Shown here: positions 17,167 to 32,874 of the stretch, piece by piece | Layout of the letters: every line of letters starts with the position of its first letter | How positions within the stretch are numbered: the first letter of the stretch is position 1 | Assembly: GCA_013002205.1 (NCBI GenBank) | Contig: JABDKN010000257.1 | Coordinates: 1 to 32,874 of the forward strand | Length of the DNA: 32,874 nt | Reading direction: 5' to 3' | DNA from: Granulosicoccus sp. | Lineage (GTDB): Bacteria; Pseudomonadota; Gammaproteobacteria; Granulosicoccales; Granulosicoccaceae | The notes under the pieces: generated by a model | What the model was told of the DNA's origin: nothing | Databases searched by the model: none | What the model saw: the letters and a program-made list of their open reading frames with translations, nothing else | Made by a program: the position numbers and the translations under genes

Positions 17167-17274
17167 TTGTGCCGCCTGAGCCTGAATCACTGACAAAACA
17201 CCATTGACAGGCAGGCCGGAACAGAGTCATAGCCTCATTCTAATTTTTCCTATCCGTCAGCAAGAGAACAGAAC

Positions 17275-18372
17275 ATGTCACGACGTCATTTCCTGAAAAC
17301 AGGTGCCGGTGCAGCAGGTGCTGCCGCGGTTGCAGGCTCCGGACTCATTACCTCTGCACCCGCCCTATCGCAGGGCCGGGAGAAGCTGGTCATGGTCACC
17401 ACCTGGGGCCGAGGCCTGGCGGGTGTATTCGACGCGGCTCAGCGCGTCGCCGATTCGGTCAATGCCATGTCCGACGGTACGCTGGAGATCGAAATCAAGG
17501 CGCAGGGTGAACTGGTATCCGGTCTGCCGGCGGTCTTCGATGCCGTCACCACTGGCCAGGCTGATATGTACCACGGCGCGGACTATTACTATGTCGGCCA
17601 GCATCCGGCGTTTGCCTTCTTTACGGCCGTACCCTTCGGCATGACGGCCATCGAGTTGAACAACTGGTATTACCACATGGGTGGCCACGAGATGCACCGG
17701 GAGCTGGGTGAGGAATTCGGCCTGGTCTCATTTCTGGCCGGTAACACCGGCGCACAGGCCGGTGGCTGGTTCCGCAAGGAAATCAGCAGCGCTGACGACT
17801 TCAAGGGCCTGAAATTCAGGATGCCCGGACTCGGAGGTGCGGCACTGGGCAAGCTCGGCGCCTCGGTGCAGACCATTGCCGGTTCCGAGGTCTACCAGGC
17901 GCTGGCCTCGGGTGCCATCGACGGTACCGAGTGGATCGGCCCCTGGGCTGACGAGAAGGCGGGTTTCCAGGAAATCACCAAGTTCTTCTATACCTCTGGT
18001 TTCCATGAGCCGGGCGCGGGCCTGAGTTGCGCCGTCAATGCCGATCGCTGGGCCTCGCTCAAGCCTCATCACCAGAAGATGATCGAGATTGCCTGCGGAG
18101 ACGCCAATTCCTGGAATCTGCACCAGTACCTGGCCAACAATTCCCTGGCCCTGGACCGGCTGGTTGCCGGTGGTGTACAGACACTGGAATTCCCGGATTC
18201 GGTGTGGGATGCGTTTGGTGCAGCCTCCAGGGAAGTACTGGACGAGAACATGGATGACGAGTTCTTTGCCAGGGTCCACGATTCGGTCATGCAAAGCATG
18301 AAGCTTTCCTCGCGCTGGGCTGGCTTGTCAGACGGTGCCTACACGCGTCAGCGGGATCGCGTACTCGGATAA
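17275..18372 (+). CDS. TRAP transporter substrate-binding protein, TakP (2-oxo acid) type
   Basis: This 365-residue periplasmic binding protein delivers substrate to the TRAP permease. It begins with a twin-arginine-like signal (MSRRHFLKTGAGAAGAAAVA) ending near SAPALSQ. The mature protein strongly resembles TakP: GADYYYVGQHPAFAFFTAVP, GNTGAQAGGWFRKEI, KFRMPGLGGAALGKLGA, DGTEWIGPW and FYTSGFHEPGAG. TakP of Rhodobacter binds pyruvate and other 2-oxo acids with Na+, so such acids are the most likely ligands. That specificity is inferred. The ATG is preceded by AAGAGA. The two membrane-subunit genes follow after 150 bases. Confidence 0.92.
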   Translation: MSRRHFLKTGAGAAGAAAVAGSGLITSAPALSQGREKLVMVTTWGRGLAGVFDAAQRVADSVNAMSDGTLEIEIKAQGELVSGLPAVFDAVTTGQADMYHGADYYYVGQHPAFAFFTAVPFGMTAIELNNWYYHMGGHEMHRELGEEFGLVSFLAGNTGAQAGGWFRKEISSADDFKGLKFRMPGLGGAALGKLGASVQTIAGSEVYQALASGAIDGTEWIGPWADEKAGFQEITKFFYTSGFHEPGAGLSCAVNADRWASLKPHHQKMIEIACGDANSWNLHQYLANNSLALDRLVAGGVQTLEFPDSVWDAFGAASREVLDENMDDEFFARVHDSVMQSMKLSSRWAGLSDGAYTRQRDRVLG

Positions 18373-18463
18373 TCCGGGAGGCGTTCCAGCTGGGTGATGT
18401 AATCGCCGCAACACCAGGTCACGGTCCGATTGTCCGCCATGGTGCGGATAGTCACCGGTCGTG

Positions 18464-18477
18464 CAGGCCCGGGCCTG
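18464..18477. repeat. 14-base palindrome between binding-protein and permease genes
   Basis: CAGGCCCGGGCCTG is a perfect palindrome inside the 150-base gap between the TRAP binding-protein gene and the permease genes. Its right side also pairs with CACCAGG at 18412-18418, so a larger RNA stem is possible. It may stabilise the upstream message or attenuate downstream expression, a common way to make more binding protein than permease. No T-run follows. Confidence 0.3.
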
Positions 18478-18522
18478 GTGTGGCAAAGACTGTTTTCCTG
18501 ACAGGAGTTCGAGGAGGCCCGC

Positions 18523-19611
18523 TTGGCGACACTTCTATCGATTTTAACTGGGCTGGTTAACGGTTTTGTGGACCTGGCGATGCTGCCGTGGACCATCTGG
18601 CAGTGGTTTCACATGGACGTGCTCAAGGAGCGCATGGTGGCACTGACGCTGGCCGGTAAATCGCCGGAATTTCTGTACATGATGCTCAGTCTGGTGTTGC
18701 TGCTGGTGCTGCTGGGCCTGCTGAGCCGGCGATTTCTCAAGGCCACGGTACTGACGCTGGAATCGTTCAATCGCACCATCGGCCAGCTGAGCGCCTGGTT
18801 CGTGTTGCTGATGATGCTGCAGCAAGTCCTGATCATCATCATGGGTCAGGTGTTTCGCGGTAACGAGTTGTTGTTCTCACCGTTCGGCCTGCAGTTGTCC
18901 AACGCCGAGCTGCAATGGCTCTCCGGCCAGCTCAAATTCTACAACGCCATACTGATCACCTTCGCATCGGCATACACTTTCATCGAAGGCGGTCATGTGC
19001 GGGTCGATCTGGTTTACGGTAACCTGGGTTACCGGGCCCAGCGACTGATTGATCTGCTCGGGGCCATCTTTTTCATGCTGCCAACCACCATCCTGCTGTG
19101 GTGGTTTGCCTGGCCGCTGGCGACCAACTCGATCTTTGCCCAGCGTCCGATGAATATCTTTTCTGACAAGGCCAGTTGGCGCGGGGTGCGACTGGAAACC
19201 TCCGGTACGGCTGAATTCACCTGGGTGTGGGCGTTCAAGGTATTGATCCTGGTGTTTGCGGCTCTGTTGTTTATACAAGCGGTGGCCTTCCTGTTGCGCA
19301 ACCTGTGGGCACTGCTGGCGCGCGACGAAGAGATCGAGTCACACCCGGCCGATCCGCTCGACGCCGGACCACCCGAGCCGGAGCCGGACATCCACCTCGG
19401 CAAGCCACTGGAGGCCGGGCAGGTGGAGCGCTCGATGAGCCAGCCACCGCCGGGCAGTGCCAGTGCCCAGCTGGCCAGCGTACGCAGTGCCGAAAGTGCA
19501 CGTCGGCGAGACCGGACAGGGGCCCCCAAGCGCGCCAATCCCACCGGCGGGCTGGCAGTGCCATCGCTGGCGCCAGCCGGTAGTCGCCACCACCCGACAG
19601 GAGATCGATGA
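18523..19611 (+). CDS. TRAP transporter small permease subunit (DctQ), enlarged
   Basis: The DctQ-type subunit pairs with DctM in the inner membrane. The TTG at 18523 is the best start because GAGGAGG ends five bases before it. The 362-residue protein has about six hydrophobic segments (around 10-30, 53-68, 88-108, 138-157, 172-195 and 233-255), whereas usual DctQ has four and about 160-200 residues. The DctQ core is recognisable in FASAYTFIEGGHVRVDLVYG and GYRAQRLIDLLGAIFFMLP. Residues 265-362 form a Pro/Ser/Arg-rich polar tail that looks disordered. The stop is one base before the DctM ATG. Confidence 0.85.
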   Translation: MATLLSILTGLVNGFVDLAMLPWTIWQWFHMDVLKERMVALTLAGKSPEFLYMMLSLVLLLVLLGLLSRRFLKATVLTLESFNRTIGQLSAWFVLLMMLQQVLIIIMGQVFRGNELLFSPFGLQLSNAELQWLSGQLKFYNAILITFASAYTFIEGGHVRVDLVYGNLGYRAQRLIDLLGAIFFMLPTTILLWWFAWPLATNSIFAQRPMNIFSDKASWRGVRLETSGTAEFTWVWAFKVLILVFAALLFIQAVAFLLRNLWALLARDEEIESHPADPLDAGPPEPEPDIHLGKPLEAGQVERSMSQPPPGSASAQLASVRSAESARRRDRTGAPKRANPTGGLAVPSLAPAGSRHHPTGDR

Positions 19612-19612
19612 C

Positions 19613-21715
19613 ATGATCTTCGGTCTGGATGGCGTTGAAATTTCGCTGATCATCACCTTCACCTGCCTGTTCATCGGCATCCTGTCGGGTTTTCCGGTGG
19701 CCTTTGCCATTGCCGGTTCGGCGATCATCAGCTTTGCCATCATCGCGCTGATGAGCCATGGCGGGCTGCTGTATACCCTTGCTGAGGGTGCAGAGGGCAG
19801 CCGCATGATTCCCGTGCTGCCCCAGGGCTGGGACGGCGCCTTTCTGTCCACACTGTCGACCTGGTCCGGTGGGGTGTTTTCGCGTGCCTTCGGCGGTAAT
19901 GTGGAAACCCTGCTGGCAGTGCCGTTGTTCGTCCTGATGGGTATCGCGCTGGAGCGTTCCCGCATTGCCGAAGATCTGTTGACGACCATGGCACGCACCT
20001 TCGGTACCCTGCCGGGCGGGCTGGCCATTTCCGTGGTACTGGTCGGTACCCTGCTGGCGGCCAGCACCGGCGTGGTCGGTGCCACCGTGGTGACTATGGG
20101 CCTGATTGCACTGCCCACCATGCTGCGTGCCGGATATTCGAAGCCTCTGGCCACCGGTGTCATCGCCACCTCGGGCACCTTGGGACAGATCATTCCGCCG
20201 TCCATCGTGATCGTGCTGCTGGGCTCCATCGTCGGTGACATGTATTCCATCGGGCAGGAGAACCGGGCCAGGGAACTTGGTCAGACGGTCATGCAGATGC
20301 TCGGTGAACCGGCCGTCCTGTCCACCGGTACACTGTTCAAGGCTGCGTTCATTCCCGGCGTCGTGCTGGCCTTCATGTATGCCCTGTATGCGCTGTGCTA
20401 TGCATTGTTCAACCCCAAGGCGGCGCCGCCCATCGAACTCGAGGATCCCCACCCCGATGCATTTCACATAGCTGCTCATTATGGGCACCGCACCGGGCTG
20501 CTGGTCCTGCTGAGCATCGGGCCGCTGGTGCTGTTGTCGGCTGGCTGGATCGTGCTGGCAAAGCTGGGAATCGTCAGCGCCCAGGATACCGTTGGCGACA
20601 CCGGACTGGTATCGCACGGAACGGCGGCGCTCGTCGTGGGGTCGCTGTTCATACTGTTGCTGGCACTGGCGCTGCAGCCCCAGTACAGTCGCCGACCGAT
20701 TCTGCTCGGTATTGCAGGCGTCATCGGCTATGTGCTGGTGGATGTGTACCTGCTCGATCTGAACGACACGGCCGGTGTCCGGTTTCTCGACTATGCAGTG
20801 CCACTGCTGCTGATACTGTACGGGCTCAAGGCCGCCATCAACCGGCTGGCGAATATCGATGTACTGCGCGTGGTTTCACCGCCGGTCATCCTGATCGTTT
20901 CGGTGCTCGGCTCGATACTCGGGGGTGTGACCAGCCCGACACCGGCGGCGGCCCTGGGTGCCGCCGGGGCGATCATGCTGGCAGCCGCGCGCCTGTCCGA
21001 AAACGACCGGAGTGCCACGAGAGTCATCCTCTGGGCTGCATTTGCGGTGATCATTCTGCTGCTGATGCGCGGCAATTTCGACCTGCGCATGACACTTGAC
21101 GAGGTCACGCTGGAGAATCGCATTGCTGTCTGGGTGTCCATCATCGCGTATCACATGGCCGTGTTCGGACTGCTGTATTCCTGCGTGGTACTGGTGAACA
21201 AGAAAGTCATGTCGCCGGTGGTCCGGGAAACGACCAAGGTCACCTGCATGGTGTTCATGATCCTGATCGCCTCCCTGTTCCTGAGTCTGTCCATTCGCGC
21301 CTACGGTGGTGAGCACTACATACAGGAGGTGCTGCGCAGTATCGAGGATCCGCGCACCCTCTTGCTGGTGGTGATGGGTGTGCTGTTCCTGCTCGGTTTC
21401 GTCCTGGACTTCATCGAGATCATTTTCATCGTCATCCCGATCGTCGGTCCGGTGATCTATGCGGCAGACCCTGCGTTGATGCCACCGGAATGGATCACCA
21501 TACTGATCGCTGTGAATCTGCAGACCTCCTTCATCACGCCACCCTTCGGATTCGCCCTGTTCTACCTGCGCGGCGTGGCGCCACCGTCAGTGACTACCGG
21601 CGATATCTATCGGGGTATCTGGCCCTTTGTGCTGATTCAGGTAGCCGGTCTCGTGCTGCTGTGGAATTTCCCTCAGATAACCACATTCCTGCCCGACATC
21701 CTGCCAGCTAACTGA
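19613..21715 (+). CDS. TRAP transporter large permease subunit (DctM), enlarged
   Basis: DctM is the ion-coupled transport subunit. The family signature is clear: GVVGATVVTMGLIALPTMLR, ATGVIATSGTLGQIIPPSIV, then in the second half SVLGSILGGVTSPTPAAALG, GFVLDFIEIIFIVIPIVGPV and NLQTSFITPPFGFALFYLRG. The protein has 700 residues where about 430 is common. The extra length lies mainly in a central insertion (about 290-420) with roughly four more hydrophobic segments, and in the 465-545 stretch. The ATG at 19613 follows AGGAG and the DctQ stop. The frame is open upstream to 19457, but that part overlaps dctQ and is not hydrophobic. Confidence 0.92.
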   Translation: MIFGLDGVEISLIITFTCLFIGILSGFPVAFAIAGSAIISFAIIALMSHGGLLYTLAEGAEGSRMIPVLPQGWDGAFLSTLSTWSGGVFSRAFGGNVETLLAVPLFVLMGIALERSRIAEDLLTTMARTFGTLPGGLAISVVLVGTLLAASTGVVGATVVTMGLIALPTMLRAGYSKPLATGVIATSGTLGQIIPPSIVIVLLGSIVGDMYSIGQENRARELGQTVMQMLGEPAVLSTGTLFKAAFIPGVVLAFMYALYALCYALFNPKAAPPIELEDPHPDAFHIAAHYGHRTGLLVLLSIGPLVLLSAGWIVLAKLGIVSAQDTVGDTGLVSHGTAALVVGSLFILLLALALQPQYSRRPILLGIAGVIGYVLVDVYLLDLNDTAGVRFLDYAVPLLLILYGLKAAINRLANIDVLRVVSPPVILIVSVLGSILGGVTSPTPAAALGAAGAIMLAAARLSENDRSATRVILWAAFAVIILLLMRGNFDLRMTLDEVTLENRIAVWVSIIAYHMAVFGLLYSCVVLVNKKVMSPVVRETTKVTCMVFMILIASLFLSLSIRAYGGEHYIQEVLRSIEDPRTLLLVVMGVLFLLGFVLDFIEIIFIVIPIVGPVIYAADPALMPPEWITILIAVNLQTSFITPPFGFALFYLRGVAPPSVTTGDIYRGIWPFVLIQVAGLVLLWNFPQITTFLPDILPAN

Positions 21716-21744: not shown

Positions 21745-24700
21745 TCAACCCACTTTTTTCATCATCTCGATCGTCGCTGCGCGATTGGCAGCCCGTCGAT
21801 CAGCCTCGACCTTGCCAGCGGCGTCCAGTCTGAGCGTGGCACGCCGATCGCCGAGTTTGTCCTTCAGTGCCCGTCGCTCAAGGCTCTGCTGATAGCGGAA
21901 GATGGCACGTGAGTTCATCTGATAGATACTGACCGGCGAGATCTGCACCTGGGCGGAATCCACCTCGATGGACTCGCCCGGCCGCACCGCAGCGACTGCA
22001 GGTGCCTGGCCTGTCGTCCGTTCCTGCGCTGCGGGCCTTTCCGTGCGACGCTCTTCGATGACTTCCACCGAGCCTGTCAGGTCCATGCGAACGATGTCGC
22101 CAGTCTTCAGGCGCTGGCAGACACCGTTGACACCGACGATCGCTGGCAGATCGTATTCGCGGGCGACGATGGCCGCATGGCTGAGCCAGCCACCCACTTC
22201 TGTAATGATGCCGCGTGCCTGTGAAAACAGCGGATACCAGGTCGGATCGGTCATCCTGGCAACCAGAATCTCCCCTTCCTTGAACGTGTTGATCTGGTCG
22301 ATGTCAGTGATCACCCTGACCGTGCCCATCACTTCATGTTCGCCGGCAACGCGCTTGCCGGCGAGGTCCGTTTGCACGATGGCATCCGGGCGCGTACCGG
22401 TCAGCATGTCGATGCGTTCCAGATCGCTGATGGACAGTGAGGCAGGAAGCTGCAGCGACTTCCAGGCCATGGACGCTTCGAAGCGTCTGTCGGCAACCTG
22501 GCTCAGTACCAGGCGCTGTGCCGAATCGGCCAGCTGGACCGCTTCGCCGATGTGCAACTGGAAGATCCGACCATCAAGCTGACACTTGGTATCGATGGCC
22601 AGCAGTAAGCGGCGGATCTGCGCAAGTTCGATCAGGCAATAGTGCTTGGCCTCTTCTTTCAGGCGCATGAAGTTGCGGGCACGTTGTACCGTAATCGACA
22701 GAACCCTGCTGTCGGGCAGCGCGTTATCACCAGCCTGCGAATCCGGCTTGTCAGCATCACCGGCATGCGGCACCGTCGATACCGACCGCTCGATGTACTG
22801 TCTGACCAGATCCATGTCTTCACTGAAGCGCGGCTCTGACAGCTCATAGTCCAGTGGTGCCCGATGCCCGAATATCAACAGAAATTCCTCGATGCTCTCG
22901 CGGCTGACGGTATGGCGATTCAACAGCGACATTGCATGGCTGACGACGGTCTCCTCCGCATCATTGAGAAACTGAGTCGGCTCAAGGTTTGCGGCCCCCA
23001 GCTTGTCGAGAGCGGTTTTCATGTGGAAGTCGGCACTGATATTGATCAGCTCGGCGGCGCAGTAAGTCTGCTCCACAAAACGATCCACCCAGGCCTCCAG
23101 CAGGGCGGTAGCAGCCTCCAGGGTCAGCCGGTCCATGTCGATGGCGTTGCGTTCGATCATCTCGGACTGGAACTGCGGCAGGAATTCGGTACGGAACTGC
23201 TCCTCGGTGGCTTCGGCATTGCGTGCCAGCCTGAATGAGGCCAGTGCACCGGGGCCTTTGCCCAGGCGGCGCCTCTCTTCCTGCTTGTTCACGTAAGTCC
23301 AGCCGAATACCGTATTGATGTAGGGCATCGAGCGGTAGTGGACATTATAGGGAATACCCAGCATCTGGCACGCCAGATCCGTACTGCCACCGGCAGACCA
23401 CAGACGCTCCATGAAATCTGCACTGAAGGGTGTAGGCCGTGGCAACAGTTCGGACAATTCACTTTGAACGTAGACAGGATCGTCCGCATCGATCTTCTCA
23501 CTGCCGCGCAAGCGCTTGCGCTGACCCAGCAGATTCTTCAATAGCTTGCCGCGTTCGCTCTCGGCAAGGTTTTTCAGGGAGTTGCCGGAGGCCACCGAAC
23601 GCGTGATGTCACGTGCCTGCAGCAGGTAGAACTTGCCGCGGGCGTAGGCCCACTCGATGTCCTGGGGCTGCCCGAACAGGGTTTCCAGCTCCCGACCCAG
23701 TGCCAGCAGTGGTGACACATCGATCGGTGGCGTCTGAGTGCTGCTCGATTCCTCTTCCAGCAGCGCTCCGGTGAGCTTGCCATAGGCGAAGGTATCGGGT
23801 GTCACATTGCCACTGACCAGCTCTTCGCCCAGTCCGGTCACCATCTCCACCATCATGGCACCGGTGGTTGCCGGATGTTCGGTGAACATGACGCCGGCGA
23901 ATTCTGCCGGTACCATCTTCTGAATCACCACACCACCCTGGTCCATGTCAAAACTCTCGCCGATCTCGACGGTGGACTGCGTGTAGGCAGCTGAGCGTTC
24001 CGAACACAGGGACTGATAGACCTCCTTGACTGCAGATTCCAGTTCGTCTCGGCTGACGTTCAGGATCGACTCATAGACACCGGCAAAACTGCTGTCGGCT
24101 CCGTCTTCGTTGGCACCTGAGCTCCTGACGGCCACCTTGCCGGTATCGAGCTTATTCCACAGGCGGTTCAGCGTCTTGAACTGCGCCCTGGTGAGCAATG
24201 GTCTATCGGGTTTACGGCGAGTGCGATTGGTGATCACACTGGTGAACACGAAGCCATCGGGTACGTTGTAACCTGCTTCGATAAGCTGTCCAAGTCTAGT
24301 GGCCTTCTTGCCAGTGGACTCGGGCAGAAAGTGTGCCTGGGACAGGGGAATCAGGCCGGTGTCATCAATGGAATCCGTCTTGTCTGCACCGGCAGTGTCC
24401 CACTCCAGTGCATTGCCGATGACGCGGAACAGCACGCTCTGGGCAATCAGGAAGGCCATGCTGATGGCCAGGTACAGATTCACGGCAGCGCCCAGGCCCT
24501 GCAGCAGCCAGAACAGGGCAGCTCCACCGAGGATCAACAGCAGTGCCTTGCGCCTCGTTCGGACCGGGCTCTGTGACACCAGGACACCGACGAACAGGGC
24601 ACTGGCAAGTATCGGCAGTATCAGCAATGGATCAGGAGCGGAGGCTGATTCGAGCCACAGGAAAGTCTGTTCCCAGGCAACGCTGCTCTGGTTGACGGCG

Positions 24701-26196
24701 GAGTAGAACAGCAGCATCAGTGATAACTGAAACAAACTGGCAAGCATGTTGATGACAGGTCGGATCCTGTAACGTTTGTATAACTGTACGGTGGCCTCGG
24801 ACAGTGCGCGCGGATGATCCGACAGCTCATCCTTCAGGTCGGTGATACGGCCCGCCAGCGACTTCTGCACGCGCGTGTCGCGTTCAGCCTTGAGTGCCAA
24901 TGGCAGCAACGCCAGGCGAATCAACAGAACGACACCCAGCAGGGCGAGCACATAATGCCCGGTCAGCTCCACCATCTTGTCGAGCAGTGTACGCATCGGG
25001 GTGATGACGTAGCTGGCGAGGGTCAGTTGATCCTGTGTCTGCTTCCAGGCCTGGACATGCGCCCGCTCGCCGGACTTGGGAATGTAGTACTCGTGCGGAA
25101 CCGTGTATCGGCCCCGAAAATCCAGTCCGGCCCGTTCCAGTCTCAGTCCGATCAACTGTGAATAGAAGCAACTGCGCTTGTCATAGCAGGCGGCAATATA
25201 CGGAACGTCCTTAAGGCCGGCTATGCGTTCGGCAAGAGCCGGGCTGCTCAGTGCCCGCATGGTGATGTTGGTGGCACCCGGCAGATGTCCCTTGACGAAA
25301 TCATTGGGATAGCGCACATCGAGAAATTGGGCACCTTCTTCGGCAACCAGCTTGTGCACGTCCGGTGTGTCCAGCAGGACGTCCTTGTTCTTGAAATCGG
25401 GTAGCTGCCGGAGATCGTCCTTGGACAGGTCGATCTTGGACGACAGGGGTCTGGATTCGGTCAGCCATTTCTCATAGCCGCCCATCATGAAATTGCATTC
25501 CTTGCCTTGCTTGGTCAGTTCTTCGCACAGTTCTGAACTTCTGTTGCCTGAATAGCACAGTAGCAGTGTGCGTGTGTTCTCCGGAATCAGGGATGAACGC
25601 GCCAGCACGTCCGGGTAGCGTAAATGCGCCGCTCCCTCGATAGCCCCGGTTTCGAATTCCTCGTTTTCCCGCACGTCGATGATGTTCAGCGGCACATCGC
25701 TTTCCAGCCATTCCGCCAGGGTCTGGGTGGTGATACCTTGTGGATGGTCCAGCTGCTCGCTGAATGACAGCGTCTTCAGGCTGGTATCACCTACGGCTTC
25801 ACCGTTCTCGATCGACTTGCGCACGAGATTGGTGTGCAGTCGCTGATTCTTGGCATCGATGGAGCTGGTGTATTGCAGGACATTGGCTGCCAGCGATCCC
25901 AGCAGCATGATGCCGGACACACCGAGCAACAGCTTTCCGCCCAGTGAAGGACGCTTGTTCCTGGCCTTTGCCTTTTTCTTGGCCGACATGGCGAAGCCAC
26001 CGAATACGACGCTCAACAGGCCCAGCAGCTGTGCGACACTGGCAGAGAGGTTGATGACGAGGTCCGGTGATGGGATTGCCAGTGCCTGGGAGCTGTGCAG
26101 CAGCATGGCCAGGGCAATCAGGCTCATCGAGACGGTGATGGGTTGCCTGCAGCGCCGCCTTGCTCGAGCCCCGTATCTGTATATTATTATAGTCAT
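21745..26196 (-). CDS. Fusion protein: two rhodanese domains, YidC/Oxa1-like core, PEP-synthase/rifampin-phosphotransferase-like module
   Basis: A single uninterrupted 1483-residue frame. Residues 22-40 look like a signal segment (SSQALA), 48-70 a membrane helix, 72-82 a basic loop and 86-108 a helix. Rhodanese 1 (155-250) has the active loop CYSGNRS with C214. Rhodanese 2 (270-375) has C337 and C343 in CYDKRSC. Residues 411-597 match the YidC core: LIRLALLPLALKAER with R427 at the hydrophilic-groove position, the charged hairpin QLYKRYRIRPVINML, and five helices. Residues 615-865 are a PEP/pyruvate-type ATP-binding domain (VAVRSSGANEDGADSSFAGV, DIEWAYARGKFYLLQARDI). Residues 900-1290 carry rifampin-phosphotransferase-like motifs (ELLPRPTPFS, FGHRAPLDYELSEPRF). 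Residues 1305-1380 are the swivelling phosphohistidine domain with H1340 in GGWLSHAAIVARE. The ATG lies 13 bases after the kinase stop. The substrate is unknown. Confidence 0.9.
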   Translation of the reverse strand: MTIIIYRYGARARRRCRQPITVSMSLIALAMLLHSSQALAIPSPDLVINLSASVAQLLGLLSVVFGGFAMSAKKKAKARNKRPSLGGKLLLGVSGIMLLGSLAANVLQYTSSIDAKNQRLHTNLVRKSIENGEAVGDTSLKTLSFSEQLDHPQGITTQTLAEWLESDVPLNIIDVRENEEFETGAIEGAAHLRYPDVLARSSLIPENTRTLLLCYSGNRSSELCEELTKQGKECNFMMGGYEKWLTESRPLSSKIDLSKDDLRQLPDFKNKDVLLDTPDVHKLVAEEGAQFLDVRYPNDFVKGHLPGATNITMRALSSPALAERIAGLKDVPYIAACYDKRSCFYSQLIGLRLERAGLDFRGRYTVPHEYYIPKSGERAHVQAWKQTQDQLTLASYVITPMRTLLDKMVELTGHYVLALLGVVLLIRLALLPLALKAERDTRVQKSLAGRITDLKDELSDHPRALSEATVQLYKRYRIRPVINMLASLFQLSLMLLFYSAVNQSSVAWEQTFLWLESASAPDPLLILPILASALFVGVLVSQSPVRTRRKALLLILGGAALFWLLQGLGAAVNLYLAISMAFLIAQSVLFRVIGNALEWDTAGADKTDSIDDTGLIPLSQAHFLPESTGKKATRLGQLIEAGYNVPDGFVFTSVITNRTRRKPDRPLLTRAQFKTLNRLWNKLDTGKVAVRSSGANEDGADSSFAGVYESILNVSRDELESAVKEVYQSLCSERSAAYTQSTVEIGESFDMDQGGVVIQKMVPAEFAGVMFTEHPATTGAMMVEMVTGLGEELVSGNVTPDTFAYGKLTGALLEEESSSTQTPPIDVSPLLALGRELETLFGQPQDIEWAYARGKFYLLQARDITRSVASGNSLKNLAESERGKLLKNLLGQRKRLRGSEKIDADDPVYVQSELSELLPRPTPFSADFMERLWSAGGSTDLACQMLGIPYNVHYRSMPYINTVFGWTYVNKQEERRRLGKGPGALASFRLARNAEATEEQFRTEFLPQFQSEMIERNAIDMDRLTLEAATALLEAWVDRFVEQTYCAAELINISADFHMKTALDKLGAANLEPTQFLNDAEETVVSHAMSLLNRHTVSRESIEEFLLIFGHRAPLDYELSEPRFSEDMDLVRQYIERSVSTVPHAGDADKPDSQAGDNALPDSRVLSITVQRARNFMRLKEEAKHYCLIELAQIRRLLLAIDTKCQLDGRIFQLHIGEAVQLADSAQRLVLSQVADRRFEASMAWKSLQLPASLSISDLERIDMLTGTRPDAIVQTDLAGKRVAGEHEVMGTVRVITDIDQINTFKEGEILVARMTDPTWYPLFSQARGIITEVGGWLSHAAIVAREYDLPAIVGVNGVCQRLKTGDIVRMDLTGSVEVIEERRTERPAAQERTTGQAPAVAAVRPGESIEVDSAQVQISPVSIYQMNSRAIFRYQQSLERRALKDKLGDRRATLRLDAAGKVEADRRAANRAATIEMMKKVG

Positions 26197-26209: not shown

Positions 26210-28516
26210 TCACGCGGCCTGATCCAACTCTTTGACATCATCTGCCAACAGTTCGGATAGACGGGTGGACAACCAGAATATGATCTTCTCTTCCAGTGCG
26301 TGTTGTTCAAAAGGTTTCGACAGATAGTCATCCATTCCTGCCGACAGGCATTTCTCTGCATCACCGGTCATGGCATTGGCTGTCAGGGCAATGACCGGCA
26401 ATCTGCTACGAGGCTCACCGGATGTGCTCTCGCGCAGGCGCAGAGCACGTGTCGCTGCATAGCCGTCGAGCACGGGCATCTGGCAATCCATCAGTACCAG
26501 GTCGAACCGGCCGGAGTCTATCTGGTCAAGACCTTCCTGACCGTTATCCGCTACATCGGCCGAAAAACCGATCTTCTCGAGCATCCCCAGGGCCACTTCC
26601 TGGTTGACCGCGTTGTCCTCGACGACCAGGATATTGAGTTTGGAATAGGCCTGGCGCCGCGCCTCGAGAGACTTGTCCTCGACGACGACTTCAATGAAGT
26701 TTTCGTTCATTGCCCGTTCCAGTATGCTGCCAAGTTCAGAGCGTTTGATGGGTTTGGTGATCTGCGCCGAAATGCGCGGGTTATTGTGTGGATAAAGCTC
26801 CTGCACCTGTTCGGTGACATAGGCCATGGGAACCAGCTTGATATTGTCGAAGGCCGGGTCCGCATCGATGCAGCGGGCAAAGATTTCGCCGGGCATGTCC
26901 GATAGCTGAGCGTTGAACAGAACGAGATCGGGCATTTCATCGTTAGCTGCGGCACTGCGGATGGATTCCAGTGCGGCGCTGCCGGAGGGTACGGTCACAG
27001 TGGCCAGAGACAACTCTGCAAGCAGTGTCTGCATCAACTCGTTGGAGGACTGCTTGTCTTCCACCAGCATGACGCGTCTGGCTGTCACCGTCTGCTGCTG
27101 TGCCTTTTCGGTCAACGAAGAACCGGAGGCCGGCATAGTCAGTTCAAACCAGAAATCACTGCCTTCTCCGACTCTGGAGGAGACACCGATCTTGCCACCC
27201 ATGCCTTCGATGAGCCGGCGACTGATGGCCAGGCCCAGTCCGGTTCCGCCGAACTTGCGAGTGGTCGATCCGTCAGCCTGCGCAAATGATTTGAAGACCG
27301 CTTCGAGGGCGGACTGATGAATGCCGACGCCGGTGTCAATGACGTTGAACAGCAGCCTCGAACCTGACGGTGTCTGTTCCAGTTCCTTGACGGTGACTTT
27401 GACTTCACCCTCATTGGTGAATTTCACTGCGTTGCCCATCAGGTTGGTCAACACCTGGCGAAGTCGCGTGGGGTCTCCCTTGACGTTCTGCCGGACATTG
27501 CCGTGGATATGGCACAGTAGTTCAAGATTCTTGCTGTTCGCCTGCTCGGACAGGGAAATGGCACACCCTTCGACAAGGTCTTCGAGGTTGAAGTCGATCG
27601 ATTCGAAATCCAGCTTGCCGGCTTCGACCTTGGAGAAGTCAAGGATGTCGTTGATCAGGGTCAGCAGGGAGCGCCCCGAGGTGGTGGCAATCTTGACCTG
27701 TTCGGTCTGTTCAGGATCAAGAGAAGTGCCCTTGAGCAATGACAGCATGCCCAGCACGCCATTCATTGGTGTGCGCAGCTCATGCGACATGTTGGCCAGG
27801 AATTCTGACTTGGCACGTGAGGCTTCCTGCAGCTCACGTTCCTTCTGCTTGCGTAACTCGAGAATGTTACCCAGCTCGTTGACTGAACTGCCAAGGTCCA
27901 TCAGCTCACGTGCAGCAACGATGTCCAGCTCACCGGTTGCCTTGTTCGCCTGCAGCAGCAGCAGGTGATTGTGGATAAGCCTGATGGGTGTCACGACCAG
28001 TCCGTTGATCAGGCCGACGACGATCAGCGCCAGGATCAGTGAGATACCGGCTGCGTAGAGGTAGATCTTGGTCGCGTAGGTACGTATGTCCGCCTGCTGG
28101 CGCTGGACGTTCCATGTCACGTCGATACGACCGAAAGACTCCCCTTCGAGCAGTACATCATGTGAGAAGTCCATGCACAGACTCGGATCGATGTCATCGC
28201 TTTTCTGCCACTGAGTCAGAATCTCATCATTTTCGTTGTAGACGCTGACAGCTTCCACGTCGGCATCGTTGTCGACCAGTTGCTTGATAGTGGTGTCCAG
28301 CACAGGCCGATCCTCACTGAGAATCGCGTCCAGCGATGTTGCCGAGAGCATGGACACCAGCTTCTGTGTCTGATCGCGGAAGTTCCGTTCGAATGCACGA
28401 TTTTCGTTGAATCGCACGAACTCGGCAGCGGAGAGTCCGACAGCCAGAATCGTACATCCCATGACCAGGATGATCTGTTGTCTCAGTGGCCAGTTTTTGA
28501 AGAATCTTGCAAACAC
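26210..28516 (-). CDS. Membrane hybrid histidine kinase with two receiver domains
   Basis: A 768-residue sensor kinase starting with GTG. Two membrane helices (about 12-31 and 151-175) flank a periplasmic sensor of about 115 residues, whose pattern ([20 protein letters not shown], then [14 protein letters not shown]) resembles CHASE8/Cache-like sensors. A HAMP-like linker leads to HisKA with H245 in [10 protein letters not shown]. The ATPase domain has the N box [13 protein letters not shown] and [22 protein letters not shown]. Receiver 1 (480-605) has Asn535 in place of the phospho-accepting Asp, although E486-D487 and K588 remain. Receiver 2 (627-750) is complete, with D677 in [13 protein letters not shown]. 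No Hpt domain is present. The gene lies between the PhnD-like and fusion genes, 64 and 13 bases from them. Confidence 0.94.
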
Positions 28517-28580: not shown

Positions 28581-29774
28581 TCAGCGGCTGACTGCAGGCA
28601 TTGCAGTGTCACTGACGGCCGCATCGGGAATGGTCAGGTTGATCGTGACACTGTGTGAGCCGTCAACCGAATCACGCCGGAAAAGGCTGTGCGGCAATGT
28701 GATGTTCAGTATCAGATGATGGCCATCCGCAGCCGGTGCGTGGTTGACGTCGGTTGTCGTCTGTACCGCTGTCTCGACAGACATGGCCCGGGTAGAGTCA
28801 CTTTGCTTCGTGTTATCTGCAAGCGCGGCCTTCAGTCCTGGTTCTGCAACCGGTTCGGTAGCGGTGGCGGTCAGTGCAGATAGTGGCTGCACTTCCGGCT
28901 CATCGCGTTCGGCGAAAAATACCGGGTTGTTATCCATTGCCTTGCGGATGACGCTGTAGTCCTCATCCGTACCTTCCAGGAATCCCTCTATCTTCAGTGA
29001 AGCCAGTGTCTTCTGGTCCTTTACCTCAAGCAGTGATTCACGCAGTGCCTGCAGTACATCCTCGTCCAGGCCCGAACGTGCAATCCATGGCTTGGTCACA
29101 TTGGGAAAACGAACCAGTTCGCGGATATTCTCTCCGGCCTCTACCAGCTTCTTGAAGGTTTTCTCGTTCAGGGCACCTGCATCGAAATCTCCGGCGCCTA
29201 CGGCAGTTCCCACTTTGTCATGTCGACCCAGATACTCATAGCGGACCAGATCGCTGGCATGTATGCCGGCTTGCTCCAGTTCCAGTTGCGAGAGAAAGCG
29301 GCCGATGGTCGAGCCTTCATCGCCAAACGCAAAGGACTTGCCCCTGAGTTCCCGGATACTGGTGATAGGGCTGTCCTTGCTGACGGCAATGATGCCGTAG
29401 AACACCTTGGAGTTCTTGACATTCTCGACAGCCAGGATGTTGATCCCCTTGTTCATCCGCTTGGCCTCAACGTAGGAGGCCGGACCGAATGCGGAAAAGT
29501 CGACGCGGCCATTGATCAGGTGCGAGATGCCCTGGTCATAGTCCTTGGCTATCTGCATGCGGATATCGACGGAACGCCGCAGTCTCTGCGACATGCTGAC
29601 TTCCAGTTCCTTGAGGATCGGTCTGTACACCTTCACCATCGCTGATGGTTTGTTGGAACTGTAGACGCCGAAATTGAGCCTCACCGTGCCTTCCGCAAGG
29701 GCAAGTGGACTGAGTACGGATACCATGAGCCCTGTCAGCAGCAGGCCAGTTCGAGAGAGTAACGTTAAAGACAT
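28581..29774 (-). CDS. PhnD/SsuA-family periplasmic binding protein with C-terminal extension
   Basis: A 397-residue exported protein with a signal peptide cleaved after about residue 27 (SPLALA). AGGA lies six bases before the ATG at 29774. Residues 30-285 match PhnD-type phosphate/phosphonate-like binding proteins: VDFSAFGPASYVEAKRM, GKSFAFGDEGSTIGRFLSQL, LGRHDKVGTAVGAGDFDAGA and EGFLEGTDEDYSVIRKAM. Residues 290-397 are an added tail, first acidic and Ala/Thr-rich, then two similar strands (LILNITLP, VTINLTIP). No PhnC/PhnE-like transporter genes are next to it, while a sensor kinase gene follows. It may therefore serve as a ligand-sensing partner rather than a transporter component. The ligand is unknown. 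Confidence 0.9.
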   Translation of the reverse strand: MSLTLLSRTGLLLTGLMVSVLSPLALAEGTVRLNFGVYSSNKPSAMVKVYRPILKELEVSMSQRLRRSVDIRMQIAKDYDQGISHLINGRVDFSAFGPASYVEAKRMNKGINILAVENVKNSKVFYGIIAVSKDSPITSIRELRGKSFAFGDEGSTIGRFLSQLELEQAGIHASDLVRYEYLGRHDKVGTAVGAGDFDAGALNEKTFKKLVEAGENIRELVRFPNVTKPWIARSGLDEDVLQALRESLLEVKDQKTLASLKIEGFLEGTDEDYSVIRKAMDNNPVFFAERDEPEVQPLSALTATATEPVAEPGLKAALADNTKQSDSTRAMSVETAVQTTTDVNHAPAADGHHLILNITLPHSLFRRDSVDGSHSVTINLTIPDAAVSDTAMPAVSR

Positions 29775-30109
29775 GAAAATTCCTGAGGCAGATGATTGGT
29801 GGCTATCAGGTGTGAAAACGGCAACAGCACACATTTCTGAAGTGGCTATTTCCGCCCCTGGGGGAAAAATGTGACGCAGCAACTCAAATGCCGATTCCCG
29901 GGAGTTTCATCACAGTAGACCTGCTCCACGTTTCGGCAACTGGTCATCGTTCTCCGTGCAAGTCATTGGATTGGGAATCAAGGATTGCGTCCCATTGTCG
30001 ATACACGATTTATCAGTGATGGAACAGAGCCAGAGGCACCTGTGCGTCGAACCGGATGTTCTTCTTTCAGGAAGGTCGATAGCCCGCATAGTTGAGAGGC
30101 AGCATTAGC
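29775..30109. other. Divergent promoter region between the PhnD-like and second kinase genes
   Basis: No gene is supportable in these 335 bases. An imperfect dyad with TTTCC/GGAAA outer arms spans 29849-29867 around GCCCCTGGG. AACTC (29881-29885) pairs with GAGTT (29902-29906). These lie 75-130 bases upstream of the PhnD-like start. Both divergent promoters should be here, but I found no convincing -35/-10 pair or sigma-54 site. Confidence 0.4.
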
Positions 30110-32874
30110 GTGGAATCAGTAAATGGCAGTACGCCGATCACATCGGCTGACAGCAATCCTGTAGACGTGCCTGATGGCGAGAGCACGGGCAGGTCGATAT
30201 TCCTGCGTGTATTGCTGGTGCTCGTCGCCTGTGTAGCGACGGTAGCGGTGCTCGTCAGCCTGAAACTGGATCAGAATTTCTGGCAGATCGCTTGGCTTGA
30301 TGGACAGCGCATCAATGCGCAGGTACTGCAGGCACTGGGCCAGATGGAGTATCAGTTGGCGGCCGTGGTACTGGTCGGACTCAATTTCATGCTGTATCTG
30401 GTTCATTCAAGTCGCAGTAGCAGGCCCCTGCCGGTCAAGAATCCCGATGCCTTTGCAGATTGGGAGGGCGAGGCGGTCACCAGCGCTGAGAACCAACCGG
30501 AGAGAACTGCGCCCGAGGATGACGCTGCACTGTGTGATGAGCTGGCCATGGATCTGTCCGAGCAGGGCCTGGCAGTCGAGTGTGTGCCGGAACTCACTGG
30601 CCTGCGCCTGGAGCGTACTGGCGACGATACGCGCAGCCGTAATGCCAACGCTGATGCACAGTTGCAGATTGCCACGGATGAGTTGACCCGGGTCAGGAAG
30701 GAGCTGGTCAATTGCCGCCAGCAACTTGAAACCGCCAATCAGGCAAAGTCACAGTTTCTGGCCAATATGAGTCATGAGCTGCGCACGCCGATGAATGGCA
30801 TCATGGGCATGACTGATCTGTTGCTGGGTGGTTCGCTGTCGGCACGCGAGGAGAGATTCGTCAATTCCATTGCGGCGTCCTCCAGCGCATTATTGGCCAT
30901 CATCAATGATCTCCTGGATTTCTCCAAGATAGAATCGGGCATTCTGCAGCTCGAGCATGGACGTTTCTCTGTGCGTGACTGCGTCGAGGATGTCTGCTCC
31001 TCACTGGCAGGCTCGGCGCATCTGAAGAACATCGAACTGATCTGCTATGTCGATGAGAATGTACCTGCGCAAATGGACGGCGATCCCGGTCGCGTGCGAC
31101 AGATACTGCATAACCTGATTACCAACGCCATTGCCTTCACGCAGGAAGGTGAAGTCGTGGTGCGGATGACCTGCAAGGAGGAACGTTCGGGCAAGTCGCT
31201 CTATCAATGCGATGTGCAGGACACGGGTGAAGGCATCTCTCCGGAGATGCAGATTCGTTTGTTTGAGGCGTTCACCCAGGGTGATGTCTCCAATACCCGT
31301 GGTCACGGTGGCCTGGGCATGGGTCTGGCCATCACTCGACAACTGGTTTCCATGATGAATGGCAACATCAGTTTTCGCAGCCGCCTGGGTGAAGGAACCC
31401 GCTTCAGCTTTACCATGGAGCTTGAGGATGTTGCCGAGGGCAAGAAGGGCGCTACCCGGCGTCGTTCGCTGCATGGTGCCCGTGTGCTGGTGGTGGATGA
31501 CAATGAGACCAACCGGACCATTCTGTTCCATCAGCTGTCCAACTGGGGTCTACTGGTGGAGACCGTCGCAGGTGGCGAGCTGGCCTTGCAGGCGCTGCGC
31601 GCCGCACACGACCGCGGTCAGGGATTCGATGTACTGATTCTTGATCTGCACATGCCGGAGATGGACGGCATTCAGCTGGCCAAGGCGATTCAGGCCGAGC
31701 CAGACTTTCGCCACATCCAGGCAATCATGCTTACCTCTGCCATTCTGCAACTCGATGGCATGGAGCTACGGCGCCTGGGTATCTACAAGTACGTCAGCAA
31801 GCCGGCCAGACAGTCGGTTCTGCACGATTCACTGGCATCCTTGATGCCTCATGAAAATGGCGGTAGAGAACCGGTAGTCCATAGTGCGTTCGTGCAGCCG
31901 AAAGTCAATGCGCGGGTATTGCTGGTTGAAGACAATCCGGTTAATCAGGATGTCGCGATGGGCATGCTGGAACAGCTTGGCTGCGAAGTGGTTCTGGCAA
32001 CCGACGGCCAGCTTGCAGTCGAACTGGGCGAGGTCGAGAAGTATGACATCGTGCTGATGGATTGCCAGATGCCCACCATGGACGGGTACGAGGCGACGCG
32101 CAGAATCAAGTCTGATGGTGCGCTCAATGCACCGACGCCAGTAGTGGCGCTGACTGCCAATGCGATGGAAGGTGATCGGGAGAAATGCCTGTCCGCGGGT
32201 ATGGATGACTATGTCTCCAAACCGGTGCGCACTCAAGTGCTGTCACATATGATCGAAAAGTGGGTGGGACGTCCCATGGAGCCCTTTGATGCAGACGCAC
32301 ACAGCCAGACGCCTGCCCTGCTGCCATCGGGCAACCGGGACGATGATCTGCCGGTCAGTGGCCTGGTGCTGGATCATGATGTTGGCCAGCCACTTGACAA
32401 TGCAGACGAGGTGGCACCGTCCGTGGATATCGCGGAAGCGCCGGTTGCTGACGAGGCGGCGGTGCAGGCAGAACAGCAGATCACTGCGGCTGACGCCGTG
32501 GAACACGAGATAGCTGTTGAAGATTCACTCGATGTTGAGGAAACATCCGTAAGACCAGTCGGGGCACCCTTGCAGTCCGGGAATGAAGCTGAGAGTACTG
32601 TGGCAGCTGATGCCGGGTATCCGGATAGCCACGCGGCGACGGACATCCCGGCGAACAGTGCGGCGCAGGCGCCGACTGCTGAAGCTGGCGATGACGCAGG
32701 CGATGAGTCTGGCCGTGATTCAGGCGGTGAGTCTGGCCGTGATTCAGGTGATGAGTCTGGCCGTGATTCAGGTGATGAGTCTGGCCGTGATTCAGGTGAT
32801 GAGTCTGGCCGTGATTCAGGCGGTGAGTCTGGCCTTGATTCAGGTGGGGCTCCGGCCGGTGATCAGGCTGGCAG
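30110..32874 (+). CDS. Hybrid histidine kinase with two receivers, truncated by the window end
   Basis: The frame opens after a stop at 30089 and continues past the window edge; about 921 residues are visible. I chose the GTG at 30110, with GAGAGG ten bases upstream; a TTG at 30092 is the alternative. Two membrane helices (about 30-51 and 82-99) enclose a loop of only about 30 residues. HisKA carries H222 in [14 protein letters not shown]. The ATPase domain has NLITNAIAFTQEG, where the usual Lys of the N box is Ala, and DTGEGI, GGLGMGLAI. Receiver 1 has D512 in LILDLHMPEMDG, and receiver 2 has D651 in LMDCQMPTMDGYEATR. From about residue 725 the protein is acidic and low-complexity, ending in tandem DESGRDSG repeats. 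An Hpt domain beyond the window is plausible. Confidence 0.92.
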   Translation, partial: MESVNGSTPITSADSNPVDVPDGESTGRSIFLRVLLVLVACVATVAVLVSLKLDQNFWQIAWLDGQRINAQVLQALGQMEYQLAAVVLVGLNFMLYLVHSSRSSRPLPVKNPDAFADWEGEAVTSAENQPERTAPEDDAALCDELAMDLSEQGLAVECVPELTGLRLERTGDDTRSRNANADAQLQIATDELTRVRKELVNCRQQLETANQAKSQFLANMSHELRTPMNGIMGMTDLLLGGSLSAREERFVNSIAASSSALLAIINDLLDFSKIESGILQLEHGRFSVRDCVEDVCSSLAGSAHLKNIELICYVDENVPAQMDGDPGRVRQILHNLITNAIAFTQEGEVVVRMTCKEERSGKSLYQCDVQDTGEGISPEMQIRLFEAFTQGDVSNTRGHGGLGMGLAITRQLVSMMNGNISFRSRLGEGTRFSFTMELEDVAEGKKGATRRRSLHGARVLVVDDNETNRTILFHQLSNWGLLVETVAGGELALQALRAAHDRGQGFDVLILDLHMPEMDGIQLAKAIQAEPDFRHIQAIMLTSAILQLDGMELRRLGIYKYVSKPARQSVLHDSLASLMPHENGGREPVVHSAFVQPKVNARVLLVEDNPVNQDVAMGMLEQLGCEVVLATDGQLAVELGEVEKYDIVLMDCQMPTMDGYEATRRIKSDGALNAPTPVVALTANAMEGDREKCLSAGMDDYVSKPVRTQVLSHMIEKWVGRPMEPFDADAHSQTPALLPSGNRDDDLPVSGLVLDHDVGQPLDNADEVAPSVDIAEAPVADEAAVQAEQQITAADAVEHEIAVEDSLDVEETSVRPVGAPLQSGNEAESTVAADAGYPDSHAATDIPANSAAQAPTAEAGDDAGDESGRDSGGESGRDSGDESGRDSGDESGRDSGDESGRDSGGESGLDSGGAPAGDQAG
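32702..32845 (+). repeat. Six tandem 24-bp units encoding DESGRDSG-type octapeptides
   Basis: Units start at 32702, 32726, 32750, 32774, 32798 and 32822. Units 1, 3, 4 and 5 encode DESGRDSG; units 2 and 6 start with Gly, and unit 6 has Leu for Arg. The near-identical DNA, not only protein, implies recent duplication by slippage or recombination. It lies in frame in the acidic linker of the second hybrid kinase. Confidence 0.95.

Follow-up and report, generated by a model that had tools for sequence, protein, structure and literature searches.

A rhodanese-rhodanese-YidC-dikinase fusion protein of Gammaproteobacteria and Alphaproteobacteria encoded beside a putative oxyanion sensor

Each part of the protein described here resembles a described system. 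Rifampin phosphotransferase (RPH; 5hv1 and 5fbs) consists of an ATP-grasp domain, a helical middle domain and a C-terminal phosphohistidine domain in that order, without a PEP barrel, and converts its substrate and ATP to phosphorylated substrate, AMP and Pi via a swivelling phosphohistidine (PMC4844700). PEP synthase and pyruvate phosphate dikinase combine PPDK_N and PEP-utilizers domains with the catalytic histidine and ATP-site residues, the YidC/Oxa1 insertases have a five-helix membrane core with a C1-type loop and a groove arginine, and tandem rhodaneses such as 6mxv contain two rhodanese folds with active-site cysteines. In periplasmic sensing, a PhnD-like binding protein or domain is paired with a sensor kinase adjoining the enzyme that is served, as described for TtrS/ThsS with tetrathionate and thiosulfate (PMC5408782) and for AioX-AioS with arsenite (PMC5908839).

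The stretch of DNA that was analysed (the window) comprises 32,874 nucleotides of a contig of the marine bacterium Granulosicoccus sp. (JABDKN010000257.1, assembly GCA_013002205.1). A single unbroken frame on its reverse strand, from an ATG at 26196 to a stop at 21745, encodes a protein of 1483 aa, in which a predicted signal peptide and two transmembrane helices are followed by two rhodaneses, a five-helix YidC core, an ATP-grasp domain, a middle domain and a phosphohistidine domain (Table 1). The program-called frame begins further upstream at a GTG (26364) within the sensor kinase gene; the column of the ATG start was invariant in an alignment within Granulosicoccus. The Pfam scores of PPDK_N (144.8 bits), PEP-utilizers (81.7 bits), Rhodanese (76.4 bits, in two stretches, with the active-site C214 and C337 present) and 60KD_IMP (66.9 bits against a cut-off of 35) all exceeded their cut-offs. 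Chance domain matches were ruled out by these scores together with the invariance of the catalytic residues.

Table 1. Features of the fusion protein and of the two genes upstream of it, in window coordinates.
Feature	Coordinates	Strand	Basis or remark
Rhodanese-rhodanese-YidC-dikinase fusion, 1483 aa	21745..26196	-	Open frame, Pfam, orthologues
Predicted signal peptide, residues 1-40, cut after ALA	26077..26196	-	Charged N-terminus, hydrophobic 23-41, ALA/IPSPD
IPSPDLVINLSASVAQLLG... membrane motif, residues 41-70	25987..26076	-	Conservation
Second N-terminal transmembrane helix, residues 89-107	25876..25932	-	Hydropathy; preceded by basic loop 65-88
Rhodanese 1, residues 151-250, loop CYSGNRS with C214	25447..25746	-	Pfam, alignment
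Rhodanese 2, residues 265-375, C337-x5-C343-F	25072..25404	-	Alignment; C-x5-C-F also in the unfused family
YidC/Oxa1-like core, residues 396-600, five transmembrane helices, groove R427	24397..25011	-	Pfam, fold match, hydropathy
PPDK-type ATP-grasp, residues 636-870 (R691, E697, D698, E784, Q860, R862; K631 just before)	23587..24291	-	Pfam, alignment
Middle domain, residues 911-1280, at the place of the RPH rifampin-binding domain	22357..23466	-	Comparison with RPH
Phosphohistidine swivel domain, residues 1301-1380, H1340	22057..22296	-	Pfam, alignment
Hybrid sensor histidine kinase: periplasmic sensor, HisKA, HATPase_c, two receivers	26210..28516	-	13-base gap to the fusion gene downstream
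PhnD-like periplasmic oxyanion-binding protein (PF12974), first gene of the triad	28581..29882	-	Pfam, alignments

Among solved structures, RPH was the best match of the second half of the protein by sequence and by fold; the alignment from the sequence search covered just the ATP and His ends. No PEP/pyruvate-binding barrel was found; PPDK_N and PEP-utilizers were the only such domains detected, and the His domain lies close to the C-terminus. The description of the C-terminal half as RPH-like without the barrel, given earlier by a sequence-only reading of this DNA, thus held. In contrast to RPH, the fusion is membrane-bound and carries the rhodaneses and the YidC core, and its score for the NCBIfam RPH equivalog, 188.3 bits, did not reach the cut-off of 999. 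It differs from PEP synthase and pyruvate phosphate dikinase in its added domains and scores below all the equivalog cut-offs. Relative to YidC/Oxa1 (fold match 3wo7), rhodaneses take the place of the P1 domain and a kinase follows at the C-terminus; the protein represents a second copy besides the housekeeping YidC of the same genome, which is encoded on a separate contig (593 aa, 213 bits), and it did not reach the cut-off for TIGR03592 yidC_oxa1_cterm (75.9 against 84.3 bits). Unlike the tandem rhodaneses, those of the fusion are predicted to be exported and membrane-anchored, have C-x5-C-F in the second domain and are coupled to a dikinase. To judge from the sequence, the catalytic parts all come from known families, and the kinase is a dikinase of the RPH/PEP-synthase type.

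Transmembrane segments were predicted by hydropathy at residues 46-64, 89-107, 416-434, 481-499, 523-541, 551-569 and 576-594. The loops at 65-88, 435-480 and 500-522 contain 8, 11 and 0 Lys/Arg residues, respectively, so that the basic residues are concentrated in the loops predicted to be inside by the positive-inside rule. These data fit a layout with periplasmic rhodaneses, a cytoplasmic kinase module and the YidC core between them, consistent with the earlier proposal that the rhodaneses occupy the P1 position. An odd number of membrane passes would be needed between outside rhodaneses and an inside kinase, and the five YidC helices would supply exactly that. Structure models built from shallow alignments were weak (mean pLDDT 54.7 and 55.4, and poor over much of 900-1290); a fold search with these models still recognised rhodanese 6mxv, YidC 3wo7 and RPH 5hv2.

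The fusion was found unbroken in nine other Granulosicoccus assemblies at 61-80% identity, and split across two contig ends in a tenth. Among 369 sampled gammaproteobacterial genomes, G161 and G227, from two other families, encode fusions of 1398 and 1458 aa with 42-43% identity, and two more fusion genomes, from another class, were present in the phylum sample. A tblastn search against plasmids identified this class as Alphaproteobacteria and yielded 82 Roseobacter plasmid records that carry the fusion, from Phaeobacter (Phaeobacter inhibens DSM 17395 among them), Leisingera, Tritonibacter, Parasedimentitalea and Ruegeria; where an NCBI annotation was listed for these records, it read only "PEP/pyruvate-binding domain-containing protein". 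The distant fusions were missed by a contig scan with generic rhodanese patterns and recovered by the genome sequence search. A match in Methylococcaceae (L041) was rejected, being an ordinary YidC adjoining an apparent trmE, and the remaining matches of the genome scans were generic rhodaneses.

Alignment of 18 fused proteins from the two classes showed no variation (18/18) at C214, C337, C343, R427, K631, R691, E697, D698, E784, E848, Q860, R862, H1340, R1346 and E1347. The residues picked out by the sequence-only reading (C214, C337/C343, R427 and H1340) were thus correct, and the conservation of R427 and H1340, on which its functional interpretation had depended, was borne out. The dN/dS ratio stayed under 0.13 for each of the domains and reached 0.24-0.38 for the tail. 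A frame error or chimaera as the origin of the fusion was ruled out, because the gene is intact in many independent assemblies and is under purifying selection.

Conservation differed among the domains. The most conserved stretch, both within the genus (98%) and between gammaproteobacterial families (72-73%), was the N-terminal motif at residues 41-70, which reads IPSPELVIGS in Alphaproteobacteria and AIPPPD in unfused proteins. Between gammaproteobacterial families, the rhodaneses showed 51-59% identity and the middle domain 44%, whereas the YidC part showed 32%, the lowest value apart from the loops and tail. The tail (21748-22050, reverse strand) is fast-evolving and contains conserved ERR/DRR motifs (ERRALKDKLGDRR...DRRAANR), which are kept in decayed Granulosicoccus copies and missing from Alphaproteobacteria. 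Two such copies were seen at syntenic Granulosicoccus loci: an 891-aa remnant of the kinase half, in which the catalytic His is replaced by Arg and the ATP lysine is lost (L104:7692-10364, reverse strand), and a 547-aa remnant with the middle domain and tail and without the ATP-grasp and His domains (L105:7999-9639, reverse strand). The binding protein is gone at both loci, and the remnants may reflect either decay or a retained non-catalytic role of the middle domain.

An unfused version in another gammaproteobacterial family, f75, came to light when the N-terminal segment was used as query. There, tandem rhodaneses occur as separate proteins that carry a signal peptide, the AIP.PD motif, the C-x-S-G-x-R loop and C-x5-C-F. 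In 9/9 genomes with such a protein, the rhodanese gene is directly followed by a co-oriented kinase gene (550-616 aa), the two either touching or overlapping. The kinase is homologous to the ATP and His domains of the fusion, with the catalytic histidine region kept, and in a profile comparison, the ATP-grasp domain of this kinase and the beginning of its middle domain were related to the fusion at 97% probability. This Rosetta-stone case, with rhodaneses and kinase separate in one family and fused elsewhere, argues that both work together. No YidC was seen in or beside the pairs in the nine genomes, which shows that the core job can be done without a YidC part, and no binding protein or sensor adjoined them, so that the sensing part is not always present. 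A tree of the rhodanese part placed all of the fused proteins together in one group, opposite the unfused ones (100/100); the tree was midpoint-rooted with long branches, and we claim no direction of change from it.

The fusion is the last gene of a triad in one orientation, with 64 bases between the binding protein and kinase genes and 13 between the kinase and fusion genes. The order binding protein, kinase, fusion was kept in all full-length Granulosicoccus loci examined. Across 27 Granulosicoccus genomes, binding-protein orthologues with at least 58% identity occurred in exactly the fusion-bearing genomes (11/11 versus 0/16), a match with a chance of 8e-8 under the assumption, not fully valid, of independent genomes; two fusion-less genomes contained only a 42-46% relative. 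In Phaeobacter, Leisingera, Parasedimentitalea and Tritonibacter, the genes for the binding protein (47-52%) and the kinase (32-34%) adjoin the fusion gene in divergent orientation, and the plasmid search gave 83 records with the binding protein at 60% identity or above and 82 with the fusion, as totals rather than record by record. In G161, the binding protein (53% identity) adjoins the fusion. Beyond it lies a gene for a PAS-GGDEF-EAL protein (L102:3606-6131, reverse strand) with the periplasmic sensor domain of the Granulosicoccus kinase (28% over 208 aa, E 4e-29); the output is apparently swapped here, with the sensor and binding protein kept. A sensor kinase of another type is located upstream of the G227 fusion. 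The proposed search of genomes for the same domain order and neighbours returned both orthologues and a recurring binding protein and sensor; these putative oxyanion-sensor genes, which the earlier reading had missed, are as conserved as the fusion. In contrast to AioX-AioS and TtrS/ThsS, the sensing genes are here partnered with the fusion, and the output of the sensor is either a kinase or GGDEF-EAL.

PhnD-type binding proteins have an STS-H oxyanion motif (PMC5700983), which reads STI, with the His kept, in the binding protein of the triad. In all 12 triad binding proteins aligned, the Lys of NVTKPW occupies the position of the tyrosine that caps phosphite. Phosphite thus seems unlikely as the ligand, although Lys for Tyr excludes little. 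A sulfur oxyanion is our guess, by analogy, because relatives of the fold sense tetrathionate, thiosulfate or arsenite and because rhodaneses are present.

Other genes were seen around the triad. A TRAP transporter (17233-21712, forward strand) with DctP, DctQ and a long DctM of ~750 aa adjoins the fusion, in either orientation, in most Granulosicoccus loci; it was set aside as a part of the system, since it does not adjoin the fusion in the G161, G227 and Roseobacter loci. A second hybrid histidine kinase (30092-32872, forward strand), with a DSGDESGR repeat near the contig end, is divergent from the binding protein, and a related kinase is found at the same place in other Granulosicoccus loci. 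In Phaeobacter, Leisingera and Parasedimentitalea, the triad occurs together with a Fur-regulator/zinc-ABC cluster. The triad of P. inhibens DSM 17395, made up of the fusion gene PGA1_RS19240, the binding-protein gene RS19235 and the kinase gene RS19230, is located on a 262-kb plasmid (L171 and L173), which also encodes the biosynthesis of tropodithietic acid, a sulfur antibiotic (PMC5421792).

We tentatively prefer, at rather less than even confidence, to regard the fusion as a transmembrane sulfurtransferase-phosphotransferase with periplasmic rhodaneses, a cytoplasmic RPH-type kinase and a YidC core as adaptor, under the control of oxyanion sensing. We infer its substrate and coupling as follows. 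The binding protein would detect an oxyanion, probably of sulfur, and control the operon through the sensor kinase. The rhodaneses would take or pass sulfane sulfur as cysteine persulfide on C214 and C337/C343, and the cytoplasmic module would convert ATP to AMP and Pi, with phosphate carried on H1340, and phosphorylate a small molecule held in the middle domain; this RPH chemistry is proposed because the kinase half matches RPH best. The YidC core would mainly serve to hold both halves in one complex at the membrane, which is the simpler reading because YidC is missing from the f75 pair and ranks among the least conserved domains between families. The invariance of R427 exceeds what a mere adaptor would need and counts against this assignment. 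Conservation of the fusion together with a sensor over two classes argues for a definite physiological job, and would equally fit a signalling role.

In such a role, which we consider doubtful, sulfur or the redox state would be sensed by the rhodaneses in the periplasm, and the dikinase half, as a phosphotransfer output, would act on the neighbouring hybrid kinase or the c-di-GMP network rather than on metabolism. A sensor lies beside every fused copy whose flanks could be read, and the G161 sensor, with the same periplasmic domain, has a PAS-GGDEF-EAL output. The G227 fusion (L103:5014-9381, reverse strand) ends in a marginal PilZ domain of the c-di-GMP-binding type (22.6 bits against a cut-off of 22.5), and a gene without the histidine in G017 still adjoins the kinase. 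However, a PilZ domain was detected in a single member, no sensor adjoins the two-gene form, and H1340 and all of the ATP-site residues are kept, together with a large middle domain at the place of the RPH substrate domain.

It is unlikely that the YidC-like groove is the route by which sulfur, or a sulfur-containing small molecule, passes from the rhodaneses to the other side to be phosphorylated there, even though the topology would set the two enzyme halves on either side of the groove and the groove arginine could guide an anion. YidC has an open groove and, to our knowledge, no role as a small-molecule channel, and such a membrane part is missing from the two-gene form. The earlier suggestion of a small molecule brought through the YidC part was not upheld, given this form and the weak conservation of the domain. 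Very unlikely, too, is a dedicated second insertase, in which the YidC part would insert one or a few membrane proteins under regulation by the rhodanese and kinase domains. The five helices, the cytoplasmic C1-type loop and the groove arginine (18/18) would suit it, and a positively charged groove residue is described as strictly conserved in YidC homologues (PMC8920935). Against this stand the position of YidC as the least conserved large domain between families, its score below the TIGR03592 cut-off, the housekeeping YidC encoded elsewhere in the genome and, in particular, the two-gene form without YidC, which makes an insertase role less likely. We regard as highly improbable a vectorial enzyme under a sulfur-oxyanion sensor, in which periplasmic rhodaneses would load sulfane sulfur, the YidC groove would pass the sulfur or its carrier, and the dikinase, converting ATP to AMP and Pi, would make a thiophosphate-type or phosphorylated sulfur compound; the reaction of selenophosphate synthase has a like stoichiometry, and the proposed enzyme would act across a membrane.

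In the open-licence literature, we found nothing relevant on a rhodanese combined with YidC, PEP synthase or PPDK, in line with the earlier view of this combination as apparently undescribed, and no description of the system-level arrangement of the fusion with its sensor triad; a description elsewhere is possible. In two P. inhibens papers, the terms tried gave no mention of the fusion gene. While its parts are familiar, the joining of periplasmic sulfur transfer to a cytoplasmic dikinase appears to be undescribed. The fusion is a natural example of an enzyme with a reused YidC core among its parts. The Rosetta-stone pair predicts an interaction between two uncharacterised f75 genes. Because P. 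inhibens DSM 17395 has an orthologue, PGA1_RS19240, with the same neighbours, the question is directly testable in that organism.
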